Assembly: GCF_037996825.1 (NCBI RefSeq)
Contig: NZ_JBBNAC010000001.1
Coordinates: 248,001 to 312,000 of the forward strand
From: Bdellovibrio sp. BCCA
GTDB taxonomy: Bacteria > Bdellovibrionota > Bdellovibrionia > Bdellovibrionales > Bdellovibrionaceae
Direction: 5' to 3'
Length of the DNA stretch: 64,000 bases
The translations under genes were made by a program, and so were the position numbers. This document shows, piece after piece, positions 46,900-51,556 of the stretch (positions within the stretch are counted from its first letter, which is position 1; the number at the start of each line of letters is the position of its first letter). The notes under the pieces were generated by a model. It was not told where the DNA came from. It was given only the letters and a program-made list of their open reading frames with translations, and ran no database searches.

Positions 46900-46968
46900 G
46901 ATATAAGGTAATAATATTAGTATTTGTGATAATTGTGAGTGAATATTGAAGCAAGTAAAGAGGTTTGT

Positions 46969-47907
46969 ATGCTCGCTCAAATACTTATCCCCGCCGTCGC
47001 TCTTTTGTGTCTAGCCCCTTTTGTTTCTTCCGGTGTCGCGCTCTTAGCCGGCGTTGTTCTGGCGTTGTGGCTCGGAAACCCTTATCTTGATAAAACACGT
47101 AAAATCACGCACTCCCTTTTAGGTCTGTCTGTTATGGGAATGGGGGCCGGGATGAATCTAGAGGTCATCGGTAAAGTGGGTTTGCAGGGAGTTGGCTACA
47201 CCGTTGCGGGCATTTCATTGGCTCTCGGTATGGGCGTTGTTTTAGGAAAACTCTATAAAACAGAAAAAGACACCTCCGTTTTGATTACCGTAGGCACGGC
47301 TATTTGCGGAGGCAGTGCCATTGCTGCCGTGGCTCCTGTTATCAAGGCAAAACATCATGAAGTGTCTGTGGCGTTAGGAACTGTTTTCATGTTGAATGCG
47401 GTGGCGCTGTTTATCTTCCCTCCGCTTGGGCACTTCTTTCATTTGTCGCAGACGCAGTTTGGTCTGTGGAGTGCACTTGCCATTCATGACACAAGTTCTG
47501 TAGTGGGAGCGTCGATGCAGTATGGGGCTGAGGCTCTGCAAGTTGGCACAACAGTGAAACTGGCGCGCGCTTTGTGGATCGTTCCTGTAGCGTTTTTTGT
47601 TGGCTACCTTTATTCCAAACAAAACGATGCAGGTCCTCGTCAAAAAGGGAAGAAGCCTTGGTTCATTTTGGGCTTTTTAATTGCCGCGGCTCTTGTAACT
47701 TGGATTCCGAGCCTTCAACCTGTAGGACATGTCGTGAATGAAGTCGCAAAAAGAATGCTGGTGTTAACTTTGTTTCTAATTGGGTTAAGCCTGACTCGCG
47801 ATACTGTCCGCAGTGTTGGTGTAAAACCTTTTCTTCAAGGTGTTTCCCTTTGGATTGTGGTTGCAAGTGGAACTTTAGGCGCTATCCTTTTAGGATGGAT
47901 TCATTAA
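46969..47907 (+). CDS. yeiH: YeiH-family (UPF0324) putative sulfite/anion exporter
   Basis: The start is the ATG at 46969. A GTG at 46939 is also in frame but lacks support. The 312-residue membrane protein has about ten helices. The conserved features of the YeiH family are present, including GMGAGMNLEVIGKVG, TAICGGSAIAAVAPVI and HDTSSVVGASMQYG. The family is annotated as putative sulfate/sulfite exporters. In E. coli it is paired with LysR regulator YeiE. It leads a three-gene operon. Confidence 0.88.
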   Translation: MLAQILIPAVALLCLAPFVSSGVALLAGVVLALWLGNPYLDKTRKITHSLLGLSVMGMGAGMNLEVIGKVGLQGVGYTVAGISLALGMGVVLGKLYKTEKDTSVLITVGTAICGGSAIAAVAPVIKAKHHEVSVALGTVFMLNAVALFIFPPLGHFFHLSQTQFGLWSALAIHDTSSVVGASMQYGAEALQVGTTVKLARALWIVPVAFFVGYLYSKQNDAGPRQKGKKPWFILGFLIAAALVTWIPSLQPVGHVVNEVAKRMLVLTLFLIGLSLTRDTVRSVGVKPFLQGVSLWIVVASGTLGAILLGWIH

Positions 47908-47918
47908 AGGATTTAAAA

Positions 47919-48653
47919 ATGTTTAAAGTTCTTTTGTTTTCAGTTTTGACTTCACTCACTGCTCAAGCAGAAACAACTCTTCAAGTGTTTGGTCCTGGCG
48001 GTCCGGCTCCGGCAATGAAAGCTTGTGCCGCCGCTTTTGAAAAAGAAAAAGGAATCAAAGTCAACGTGACATCAGGTCCTTTAGAGAAATGGTTGGGACA
48101 AGCTGAAACTGCGGATGTGTTTTATTCAGGCTCTGAAAATATGATGGACTCTTTTGCAGAGAAGATTCCTAATCTGGATGCACAGACAATAGAGACTCAC
48201 TATTTAAGGCCCTCCGCTATTTTGGTTCGCCCTAAAAATCCAAAGAAGATTCGCGGCATCAAGGATCTGGTTGAAAAACCTTTGAAAGTCATAGTTGTCA
48301 ATGGTGCGGGACAAGTGGGCATGTGGGAAGATATTGTTGGCGGACTTAAAAGTGCCAAAGCTTTAAATAAATTTCGCGCGAATATTGTTTTTGCCGCAAA
48401 AAATACCGGCGATGCTGAAAAGACATGGAAAGAAGATCCGTCCATTGATGCTTGGCTTGTATTTAATATCTGGGGAACACGCAATCTGGAAATCGCAGAG
48501 ATTATTCCTACAGAGAAAAATCTGACAATCTACCGTTCTAGTGGAACGGCCCTTTCTAAGTCGACAAAACAAAAAGAAGCCGCTTTGCAGTTTATTGGTT
48601 TTGTAAAATCCAAAGAGTGCCGCAAATCTTTTGAAAAAGAAGGTTGGTTCTAA
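47919..48653 (+). CDS. Periplasmic solute-binding protein (type 2, ModA-like)
   Basis: The ATG at 47919 gives a signal peptide (MFKVLLFSVLTSLTAQAET). The ~220-residue mature domain resembles the ModA/SBP_bac_11 group: FGPGGPAPAMKACAAAFEKEKGIKV, then YSGSENMMDSF, and the late IYRSSGTALSKSTKQKEAALQFIGFVKS. Such proteins bind small oxyanions or carboxylates. No ABC partner is present. Placement 11 nt after YeiH suggests it supplies or senses the YeiH substrate. Confidence 0.85.
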   Translation: MFKVLLFSVLTSLTAQAETTLQVFGPGGPAPAMKACAAAFEKEKGIKVNVTSGPLEKWLGQAETADVFYSGSENMMDSFAEKIPNLDAQTIETHYLRPSAILVRPKNPKKIRGIKDLVEKPLKVIVVNGAGQVGMWEDIVGGLKSAKALNKFRANIVFAAKNTGDAEKTWKEDPSIDAWLVFNIWGTRNLEIAEIIPTEKNLTIYRSSGTALSKSTKQKEAALQFIGFVKSKECRKSFEKEGWF

Positions 48654-48659
48654 AAAAGC

Positions 48660-49226
48660 ATGGCATGGTGGACTTGGGTAGCGCCTTTCGTTTTGGCGTT
48701 TGTCGCAAAAGTTTTGAGCTACCATTTTTTTTACTACGATGGATTTTTCTACGTCTATGGATCTTACGTCGTCTGTTTGCCATTATACTTTTTGTGGGGA
48801 CCACGAGTTTTTCCAGGTCAACTTCTTGCGGAAGTTCTGACTTCAAATATCGTAGGCATTCGCGAGCCTGATATCATCTTCTTGCACGGTCTTGCTAATG
48901 CCGTGAAACCGCTTTTAGGTTATTACCTTTTTATCTGGCTTGGCGGTTGGAAAAGAAAAGAAACCATTGATCGTAATTTAATTTTTTTATTTGGAACGCT
49001 TTTAATTGCGACCTCCATTGCCAATTACGTTCTTGTCGGATTTCGTGTTGGCGTTGGTGATGTGACAGCAGGACAACTGCTGCCAAGAATTTTGAAGCAA
49101 ACCTTGCGAGATTGTTTGTGGGGTTATTTCGTTAGCTATCAGGTTTTAAACTGGCTGGGACCGAAGCTTCGCCCTTACAATTTGTCTCGCTGGCCCCCGG
49201 ATATCGCGAAAAATCCTTTAGAGTGA
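48660..49226 (+). CDS. Small polytopic membrane protein, MASE1-like segment
   Basis: The 188-residue protein has about five membrane helices. The middle part (WGPRVFPGQLLAEVLTSNIVG...LHGLANAVKPLLGYYLF) recalls the MASE1 sensory membrane domain, but no signalling output domain follows. It starts 6 nt after the solute-binding gene and is presumably the third member of the YeiH operon. Its end overlaps the convergent TonB receptor gene by 9 nt. The function is unknown. Confidence 0.75.
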   Translation: MAWWTWVAPFVLAFVAKVLSYHFFYYDGFFYVYGSYVVCLPLYFLWGPRVFPGQLLAEVLTSNIVGIREPDIIFLHGLANAVKPLLGYYLFIWLGGWKRKETIDRNLIFLFGTLLIATSIANYVLVGFRVGVGDVTAGQLLPRILKQTLRDCLWGYFVSYQVLNWLGPKLRPYNLSRWPPDIAKNPLE

Positions 49227-51290
49227 TGCACTCATACTGAGATAAATGTTACGAGCTTCTCCGGGATACAGATAAATATGTCCGTACTGAGTTGGCGATT
49301 CTTTCCAGTAACGTTGATCAGTGATATTATCCACCGACAGCCGCCACAGCATTTTCATATCATCCCAAGTGTGAGCGTAAGAAGCTCCCAGATCCCAACG
49401 AGTCCACGCTGGAAGCATGATGCTATTGTCAGCAAGTACGGCACGCTCTCCTTCGTGAGATAGGCGTGTGTTTAAAGAAAGACCTTTGATTTCAAGAACT
49501 TTATAACCTAACTGCAGGCGAGCTGTTTGCTCTGGGACGTTGACGGGCTTTTTTCCGTTGAGATTTTTATCAAGAACACTATCTTTGCGAATGGCCTCGA
49601 GTTTCATTAAGGAGGTATTTATATCCCATCGTTCCCACTGTGAAGAAATTTGTGCTTCAAAGCCTTTGTGCTCAGCTTCGCCGTCAACTTGATAGCTGGG
49701 TTTCTGATCAATGACTTGAGGACGTGTGATTTGGAAAGCGGCGACATTCCAGTTGAGCTCTTTGCCTCCACGAAGTCCCACTTCGATTTGCTTGCTAACT
49801 ACATCGGGAACAAATTCTCCACGGTGGTCATAACCGTCTTTGTTGGGAGTGACATAAGACTCCAGTCCCTGACCATAACTTGCATAGGTTAAAACATTTT
49901 CAAAATCATAAGAAAGAGCTACCCATGGCGTGGCAAAATTTTGTGTGTAAGAAAGAGCGCGTGATCCATCCGTACGGAAGCTTCCGCGGTTTAAGTTTGT
50001 ATAACGAAGGCCCAACCAACTTTTCCATTTGCCCCACTGAGAGGTATCGGACAAAAAGAGTTCATAATTGGAAGTATCTCGATTGGTGTTTTCGTCATTC
50101 AAAACCGGATTCGCTGTGCCGATGCCGGTGCCTTGGACATTGCCCGTGCCTGCATAATTGTAAGCTTGTTTTTGAAAGTGCTCTCGCATAGAGCTGCCCA
50201 CTATTCCGACGGAAATTTGATGTTGAAAGGCACCCGTTACGACACTGCCTTGGAGAGCGGTTTTTGCTGCATAAGTTTTGCGGCTTTCATTTTCACTGCG
50301 ATAATCATAAAGGTCATACGTTCCATCAGAGCAATAGCGATCATAGTTATTCTCAGCGCTACATCCGAAAGGGTAAGCCAAGCGGTCACTGGTGGAAAGA
50401 TCTTGAGCACCCGCGATCACAGTCCAACTCCACGGGGCTGACAGATTTTTGGTAAATTTCATCGTGCCGGTGAGGCCCTTAAACTCCACAGGTTCAGTCC
50501 AGGGTTGATTATTTAAATTCAAAGTTGGATCTGCCGGATCGGGAAGTTTATTTCCTAAGAGACTGAATCCGGCTTGGCTTGGTTGCGATCTTTCTGACCA
50601 TTCGATTTCTGCTTCAATAAGATTGTTATTATCCAAACGCCAATCGCCCGCTAAAGCCACAAGAGTTCGTTGACCAGAAGTTTTCTTGAGCTGTGGTTCT
50701 AGATTTTCGTGTGCAAGGTTGACCCGATAGCCAAATTTTTTATTTTCACTTCGTCCGCCGAGATCAGCAGCCGTTAACAAATTTCCTCGTTCACTGACTT
50801 CAGTGTTTAGAATTCGTAGAGGTTTTTCCGTGGGTCGTTTTACGATATAGTTCACCATTCCTCCTGGTGAAGCAGCGCCGGCCTGAATGCCACTAAGCCC
50901 TTTTAAAATTTCAATGCGTTCTTTGTTATCAAGACCGATCGACGTTTCCGCACTGATAGGAAGGCCTTCTCTTAAAAAATTATAACGATTTTCAAGAGTG
51001 AAGCCGCGCACGGAAAGGTAATCCCAGTATCCCGTGGCATTGTAGCTATCTGTGGTTGAAGCGTCTATCAATGTGACATCAGAAAGACGGTGAAAGCCGT
51101 TGTCTGCCATTTCCTTTGAAGAAATAGAAATGGATGAAAGAGGAAGTTCTTTTTCGGGAGTGTCATTAAATCCAGAAACGTCCAGCGAGACAAGATCAGT
51201 GGATTCTGTAATTCGGATCGTTGAAATTTCCGATTGTGCACTTGCAAACGAAGTGTGGAGCAAAAGAACAAGCAATAATTTTTTTCCCAT
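49218..51290 (-). CDS. TonB-dependent receptor, probable thiamine-compound importer
   Basis: The 690-residue outer-membrane receptor has a signal peptide (KLLLVLLLHTSFASA), a plug domain (about 50-155, with YWDYLSVRGFTLENR and the GLSGIQAGAASPGGMVNY segment), and a 22-strand barrel ending in an aromatic C-terminus. By sequence it resembles siderophore receptors. However, a TPP riboswitch lies directly upstream, which points to uptake of thiamine or a thiamine precursor, as known for riboswitch-linked TonB receptors in other Gram-negatives. The start codon is under the control of the switch's Shine-Dalgarno hairpin. No TonB or ExbBD gene is nearby. Confidence 0.92.
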   Translation of the reverse strand: MGKKLLLVLLLHTSFASAQSEISTIRITESTDLVSLDVSGFNDTPEKELPLSSISISSKEMADNGFHRLSDVTLIDASTTDSYNATGYWDYLSVRGFTLENRYNFLREGLPISAETSIGLDNKERIEILKGLSGIQAGAASPGGMVNYIVKRPTEKPLRILNTEVSERGNLLTAADLGGRSENKKFGYRVNLAHENLEPQLKKTSGQRTLVALAGDWRLDNNNLIEAEIEWSERSQPSQAGFSLLGNKLPDPADPTLNLNNQPWTEPVEFKGLTGTMKFTKNLSAPWSWTVIAGAQDLSTSDRLAYPFGCSAENNYDRYCSDGTYDLYDYRSENESRKTYAAKTALQGSVVTGAFQHQISVGIVGSSMREHFQKQAYNYAGTGNVQGTGIGTANPVLNDENTNRDTSNYELFLSDTSQWGKWKSWLGLRYTNLNRGSFRTDGSRALSYTQNFATPWVALSYDFENVLTYASYGQGLESYVTPNKDGYDHRGEFVPDVVSKQIEVGLRGGKELNWNVAAFQITRPQVIDQKPSYQVDGEAEHKGFEAQISSQWERWDINTSLMKLEAIRKDSVLDKNLNGKKPVNVPEQTARLQLGYKVLEIKGLSLNTRLSHEGERAVLADNSIMLPAWTRWDLGASYAHTWDDMKMLWRLSVDNITDQRYWKESPTQYGHIYLYPGEARNIYLSMSASL

Positions 51291-51293
51291 GGG

Positions 51294-51312
51294 TTCTCCT
51301 ATGGCAGGAGAA
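51294..51312 (-). promoter_or_regulatory. Shine-Dalgarno sequestering hairpin of the TPP switch
   Basis: On the minus strand TTCTCCT (51312-51306) pairs perfectly with AGGAGAA (51300-51294) across a 5-nt loop. The second arm is the receptor's ribosome-binding site, 3 nt before the ATG. This implies translational control: the ligand-bound aptamer would favour the closed hairpin. Confidence 0.75.
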
Positions 51313-51329
51313 AGTCATGGCAACACCAT

Positions 51330-51415
51330 TACTTGCTTCCCTGCGCGAGCATTATCTCTTTCAGGTTCAAAGGGTGTTTCTCAGCCATCAATTTCTTGAT
51401 AGCACCCCTAGCTTT
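51330..51415 (-). ncRNA. TPP (THI-box) riboswitch
   Basis: Read on the minus strand, the region shows the TPP aptamer in order. GCTAGGGGTGCT begins the aptamer. The hairpin ATCAA-gaaa-TTGAT follows, then GGCTGAGAAACACCC with the conserved CUGAGA, then GAACCTGA. AGATAATGCTCGCGCAGGGAAGC closes the P4/P5 arm. These are the invariant TPP-binding elements. It is upstream of a TonB-dependent receptor gene, whose Shine-Dalgarno site lies in an adjacent hairpin. Confidence 0.93.
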
Positions 51416-51556
51416 CAGGCATGGGTTATGTGGCAAGTTTAAAGCCCAGTCAAATAATATTTCGGCCGAAGGTCTTTTGCCAGGAGGCAAGGGTTGGAGT
51501 TTTGCTTTTTTATCCAAGGGAGCAGAGAATGGAAGTACAAAAGAGGAGTTGTTCTT

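Follow-up and report, generated by a model that had tools for sequence, protein, structure and literature searches.

A TPP riboswitch, placed as such by its sequence and thus predicted to bind TPP, precedes the gene of a TonB-dependent receptor on the minus strand of the 64,000-nucleotide stretch of Bdellovibrio DNA analysed here (the window), and this arrangement most likely serves a cell unable to make vitamin B1 that takes up the vitamin only when short of it. Specifically, we consider it highly probable that TPP represses translation of the receptor, and that the receptor imports an intact thiamine compound, which is then handled by a ThiBPQ-type ABC transporter and ThiL. Ample thiamine pyrophosphate would lead the riboswitch to repress receptor translation, whereas low TPP would leave the receptor Shine-Dalgarno sequence (SD) exposed and the receptor would be made. 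Driven by TonB, the receptor would then bring in the compound (thiamine, TMP or TPP) through the outer membrane; passage through the inner membrane would fall to a ThiB-PQ-type ABC transporter, whose genes lie elsewhere in the genome, and ThiL would phosphorylate TMP to TPP.

Scanning of the whole 64-kb window with Rfam cmscan returned a single match above gathering, namely the TPP aptamer RF00059 (63.1 bits, gathering 54.3, E 4.9e-10), with model positions 1-105 all matched. The initial annotation had reported all THI-box elements on the minus strand and had proposed this covariance search as a check; both the identity and the completeness of the element were thereby borne out, and the span originally given (51294-51415) corresponds to the aptamer minus its first 4 nt, plus the SD hairpin. 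A genome-wide search showed that the riboswitch of the receptor is the only one of its class in the 4.0-Mb genome. Alignment of 23 aptamer sequences further uncovered changes on both sides in 5 of the 17 consensus pairs, all of them in P3, while 11 of the remaining 12 pairs were invariant, which renders the helices other than P3 nearly constant. Two promoter-like sites were scored on both strands of the leader region, with 0.3 expected, and they carry no indication of function; the one just upstream of the aptamer is listed together with the other features in Table 1.

Table 1. Coordinates of the features described in the text (window positions, except for the last row, where positions refer to the loci named)
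Feature	Position	Strand	Basis
TPP riboswitch aptamer (THI element, RF00059)	51321-51419	minus	covariance score, single genomic copy, P3 covariation
Anti-SD strand UUCUCCU, expression platform	51306-51312	minus	sequence; fold and shuffle control
Receptor Shine-Dalgarno AGGAGAA	51294-51300	minus	sequence; pairs with 51312-51306, probability 0.99
TonB-dependent receptor (690 aa), predicted to import thiamine compounds across the outer membrane	49218-51290	minus	ORF, TIGR01783, Plug, riboswitch-linked orthologs
Possible sigma-70-type promoter CTGGCA-18-TATTAT	51454-51483	minus	just 5' of the aptamer; weak, consensus match only
Divergent ThiL-like kinases (G008, G015, G025, G018)	L073 5061-6074, L074 4946-5968, L075 4707-5747, L076 909-1922		

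We then considered how the aptamer could act on the receptor gene. The separate 7-bp hairpin described earlier as hiding the receptor SD proved real: the mean paired probability of the SD in the leader was 0.99, whereas 300 dinucleotide-shuffled versions of this leader averaged 0.61 and 0.7% of them reached 0.99. ViennaRNA folding of the window leader yielded energies of -51.8 kcal/mol for the free RNA, -46.7 kcal/mol with the aptamer forced and -38.5 kcal/mol with an anti-sequestor forced, and the SD hairpin was closed in both the free and the aptamer-forced folds. The only anti-sequestor found for this leader, made of the anti-SD strand and the aptamer 3' strand, gained no support, as 34% of the shuffles performed equally well and the structure was less stable. 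Closure of the SD hairpin in these two folds, together with an anti-sequestor no better than shuffles, counts against our main reading. The two closed folds would suit a riboswitch that is a relic in this species, whose aptamer still folds but which no longer switches or whose SD hairpin stays closed at any TPP concentration, and so would the genus member that carries the receptor without a switch (G022, below); nevertheless, covariation in P3, near invariance of the other helices and an aptamer score that still amounts to 63.1 bits all speak against it, and we regard such a relic as very unlikely.

Comparison of 19 genus leaders, with that of the window's genome (G000) among them, revealed two architectures. 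In nine leaders of a direct type (G006, G008, G009, G013, G014, G016, G017, G019 and G020), the AGGGAA at the 3' end of the aptamer (AGGAAA in G014) lies 10-11 nt 5' of the AUG and most likely doubles as the receptor SD, judging from its position; TPP binding should therefore block translation in these cases. The other ten leaders, including that of the window, are of a hairpin type, with an aptamer-to-AUG distance of 52-88 nt. In all ten, the last hairpin of the minimum-energy fold takes in the SD or the start, wholly or partly, and the linker is more stable than the shuffle mean (z from -1.2 to -5.0). SD pairing was matched by fewer than 5% of the shuffles in two of them (G000 and G011), and a strong anti-sequestor was evident in two (G011, with 1.4% of shuffles as good, and G024, with 0.2%); none of the other eight, the window's included, had a strong one. 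That only two of the ten leaders stand out in each of these respects counts against our main reading. A translational output, as originally proposed for this locus, is thus well supported across the genus by leader anatomy, whereas folding did not establish an ON structure for the window's leader. That a single aptamer-receptor pair comes with two kinds of expression platform is a modest new point.

Transcription-terminating TPP riboswitches exist, and termination instead of SD masking would be an alternative output. However, no intrinsic-terminator-like site was found on the minus (coding) strand between 51250 and 51560, the single such site of the leader region being located on the opposite strand, and the 10-11 nt that separate AGGGAA from AUG in 9 of the 19 leaders are too short for a terminator. 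The E. coli tbpA riboswitch, which modulates both translation and mRNA levels according to passages of PMC11487190, lends this alternative some weight, and Rho-dependent effects in the leader are possible; control by termination is nonetheless very improbable in our judgement. A mini-ORF (AUG GUG UUG CCA UGA, 51329-51315, minus strand) was also noticed in the window leader. It starts 13 nt past the aptamer AGGGAA and its stop codon lies just 5' of the anti-SD strand, and a ribosome translating it could melt that hairpin; inspection by eye showed a comparably spaced AUG in just one other hairpin-type leader (G005), so the mini-ORF may be due to chance.

To place this pair in its phylogenetic context, class genomes were searched for both elements. 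TPP matches were found in 34 of 143 genomes, and within the genus the aptamer was present in 19 of 24 genomes, always above gathering and always with a receptor ortholog directly 3' of it; the 18 receptors other than the window's share 43-61% identity with it. Conversely, of the 141 class genomes searched for the receptor, 20 gave a match (E<=1e-30), every one in the window's genus, and 19 of these 20 have the riboswitch upstream. The exception is G022 (L077, G022:C47), in which the receptor directly follows another gene and no aptamer occurs within the G022 sequence covered, an arrangement that counts against our main reading, while G015, G018, G021 and G025 have neither element. B. bacteriovorus kdesi (NZ_CP102930.1, locus L087) also carries the aptamer, at 61.8 bits. 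Genes flanking the window receptor recurred near the receptor in only one of the 18 other genus loci (two genes, in G005), in a comparison that disregarded weak LysR-type regulator matches beyond the genus. The surroundings are thus hardly conserved, and aptamer and receptor are what stays together. As for candidate partners next to the gene, the downstream 188-aa membrane protein, the ModA-like protein and the upstream MFS protein were discarded, being near the receptor in none of the 18 other loci. The 188-aa membrane-like protein (48660-49226, plus strand) is convergent with the receptor, overlaps its 3' end by 9 bases and yielded no Pfam or NCBIfam match; it adjoins the ModA-like binding protein (47850-48653) and a YeiH-type transporter (46939-47907).

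The remaining 15 TPP matches of the class lie outside the genus. Six of them head operons that start with what we take, from its motifs, to be a ThiM-like protein, and ThiE and/or ThiL family matches were found inside such operons of G046, G039 and G112. Another four (G090, G115, G127 and G136) precede permease and ATPase transporter operons resembling the ThiB type, two (G045 and G054) head a probable ECF-type transporter, one (G072) a TonB-dependent receptor other than the window's, and the genes behind those of G067 and G070 were left unassigned.

The gene controlled in the window starts thirty nt 3' of the aptamer, and its product is a TonB-dependent receptor by both its Plug domain (PF07715, 38.7 bits against a cut-off of 23.9) and its whole-protein family score. 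The latter exceeds the cut-off of TIGR01783, 'TonB-dependent siderophore receptor' (247.1 versus 223.5 bits), and the best solved relatives of the protein are the siderophore receptors FemA, BauA and FhuA; the resemblance to siderophore receptors noted at the outset is therefore genuine, and this family score counts against our main reading. It could mean that the cargo is a ferric siderophore, or some other chelate, with the TPP switch tuning an iron function to vitamin status. TIGR01783 is, however, a broad subfamily, and one riboswitch-linked relative in Burkholderiales (L086) falls just below its cut-off (220.5 bits). The link to the TPP aptamer is kept across two phyla, the tested thiamine synthesis genes (ThiC, ThiE and TPK) are missing, and BT2390, a TPP-switched receptor of Bacteroides, matters for thiamine use as judged by its deletion in passages of PMC5613172. 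With this evidence in hand, iron or chelate import appears highly implausible, and thiamine import remains our preferred reading. We therefore suggest that annotation as 'siderophore receptor' be changed, since a vitamin importer is more likely both in Bdellovibrio and in several Burkholderiales.

The second phylum emerged from a scan of a genome collection, which returns close relatives only and is not a census. Its seven receptor relatives comprised that of B. bacteriovorus kdesi and six from Burkholderiales, that is, Rubrivivax, Leptothrix, Aquabacterium (two), Ideonella and a record named Beta proteobacterium AAP65, which share 43-45% identity with the window's receptor over nearly full length. 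The aptamer lies above gathering upstream of four of the six (L081, L082, L085 and L086) and just below it at L083 (52.8 bits). At L084 (Aquabacterium terrae, about 2620-2800), inspection by eye disclosed an aptamer split by an inserted repeat near the P4/P5 strands, which Rfam missed. All six Burkholderiales relatives thus have the aptamer, one of them by eye only, and the recurrence of TPP-switched receptors of this family in that order strengthens the earlier proposal of thiamine import. Mean aptamer identity between the genus and five Burkholderiales loci was 0.77 (95 pairs, L084 left out), versus 0.58 when the genus was compared with 14 further TPP aptamers from the class (266 pairs). Within this comparison set, the figures are consistent with switch and receptor having been inherited together; a receptor tree did not settle the direction of transfer.

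We further inventoried the thiamine genes of the 24 genus genomes. ThiC (with G112 as positive control), thiamine pyrophosphokinase (TPK) and PnuC/PnuT were detected in none of them, which discards PnuT as the inner-membrane partner, and none encodes a full-length ThiE. Matches to PF02581 (ThiE) were rejected as partial and below cut-off, except for that of G024 (28.3 versus 27), and the one in the window's genome, located in a 332-aa frame, is presumably a nitronate-monooxygenase-like barrel. The check for thi biosynthesis genes suggested in the initial annotation hence revealed no ThiC, ThiE or TPK in this genome. All 24 genomes encode TPP-dependent enzymes (PF02779, with three matches in the window's genome) and a ThiB-type binding protein above cut-off. 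In the window's genome, the ThiB-type gene heads a permease/ATPase operon (G000:C1:562192-565296) that is 30-54% identical to riboswitch-controlled ABC operons of other families. Its product scored 203.7 bits with TIGR01254 (cut-off 93.4) and stayed below the stricter TIGR01276 thiB (196.7 versus 317.15), and among solved structures the thiamine-binding protein 2qry comes closest (E 2.7e-51). The ThiP model TIGR01253 gave only weak matches, below cut-off.

ThiL was found above cut-off in 20 of the 24 genomes, including an NCBIfam ThiL in that of the window. Receptor and ThiL co-occur in 19 genomes, with the receptor alone in one (G008), ThiL alone in one (G021, 88% complete) and neither in three (Fisher p = 0.008, kinship ignored); G008, with riboswitch and receptor and with ThiL below cut-off, counts against our main reading. 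In each of G008, G015, G025 and G018, the genomes with no ThiL above cut-off, a divergent kinase resembling ThiL is encoded (about 340 aa, 100-116 bits against a cut-off of 184). Its gene neighbourhood is unlike that of the ThiL gene in the window's genome, and these kinases possibly replace ThiL in the four genomes. The four PF01636 matches of the window's genome were dismissed as ThiK candidates, as by NCBIfam they resemble AmgK, the serine/threonine protein kinase PRK11768 (which we take to be SrkA), an APH(6)-like protein and UbiB, and no thiK model matched them at 1e-5.

This inventory bears directly on the substrate. ThiE is what couples the pyrimidine and thiazole halves, so in its absence imported half-molecules would be useless, which disfavours precursor import. 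Likewise, the lack of TPK and of a recognisable ThiK, together with retention of ThiL, points to TMP (or TPP directly) as the entering form. ThiBPQ takes thiamine, TMP and TPP. A table in PMC10881298 lists these three substrates, and thiamin and TPP appear as such in passages of PMC11487190. The best reading of the gene content is thus import of intact thiamine compounds, probably phosphorylated. Of the two cargoes initially envisaged, thiamine or a precursor, the former agrees better with the apparent absence of ThiC, ThiE and TPK and the presence of a ThiB-type ABC transporter, ThiL and TPP-dependent enzymes; that the inventory indicates intact thiamine phosphates is likewise a modest new point. 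An incomplete thiamine pathway is also a feature of the B. bacteriovorus model iCH457, as stated in a passage of PMC7529429. The broader scenario, in which the predator lives on thiamine phosphates of its prey (TMP/TPP via the receptor, ThiBPQ and ThiL) and, in addition, switch and receptor passed between Bdellovibrio and Burkholderiales as a single cassette, is put forward tentatively and, as a whole, is rather doubtful.

Pairing of TPP switches with TonB-dependent receptors is already known, and the Bdellovibrio pair is a further case of the TPP-riboswitch receptors of the omr1/OMthi type, to which it is assigned by its conserved riboswitch control and not by sequence alignment with BT2390 or omr1. 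OMthi (BT2390) of Bacteroides thetaiotaomicron is a TPP-riboswitch-controlled TonB-dependent thiamine transporter, as demonstrated by deletion, and shares with the window's locus an aptamer ahead of the receptor and thiamine transport, predicted in our case (PMC5613172, in part). In passages of the same source BT2390 accompanies TPP-switched biosynthesis and pnuT operons, whereas ThiC, ThiE and PnuT were not detected in the window's genome and the receptor is its sole TPP-switched gene. Passages of PMC10881298 and PMC2771747 (citing Rodionov et al. 2002) describe TonB-dependent transporters predicted for thiamin, omr1 among them, for which outer-membrane uptake was likewise predicted from a riboswitch, or from pnuT linkage; unlike these, the Bdellovibrio/Burkholderiales clade is not named in those passages. 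The TPP riboswitch of E. coli tbpA (thiBPQ) is a translational OFF switch that masks the SD and governs thiamine import, the mode of action proposed here, although it controls an inner-membrane ABC transporter (PMC11487190, in the passages concerned), whereas the ABC operon of the window's genome lacks a TPP aptamer. The main text of the TPP-regulon analysis PMC3766115, as far as available, mentions neither Bdellovibrio nor TonB nor omr, and the titles and abstract openings of the open-licence literature yielded no paper on the Bdellovibrio switch-receptor pair. The pair offers a concrete, testable uptake route for a vitamin apparently beyond the biosynthetic capacity of predatory Bdellovibrio, and expression of the receptor gene would report how much prey vitamin the predator can reach. 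Finally, a TPP aptamer also precedes the TonB-dependent receptor of G072 (L045), a member of another family of the order; this receptor, whose AUG is located 15 nt past AGGAAA, gave no BLAST match to that of the window at 1e-3.
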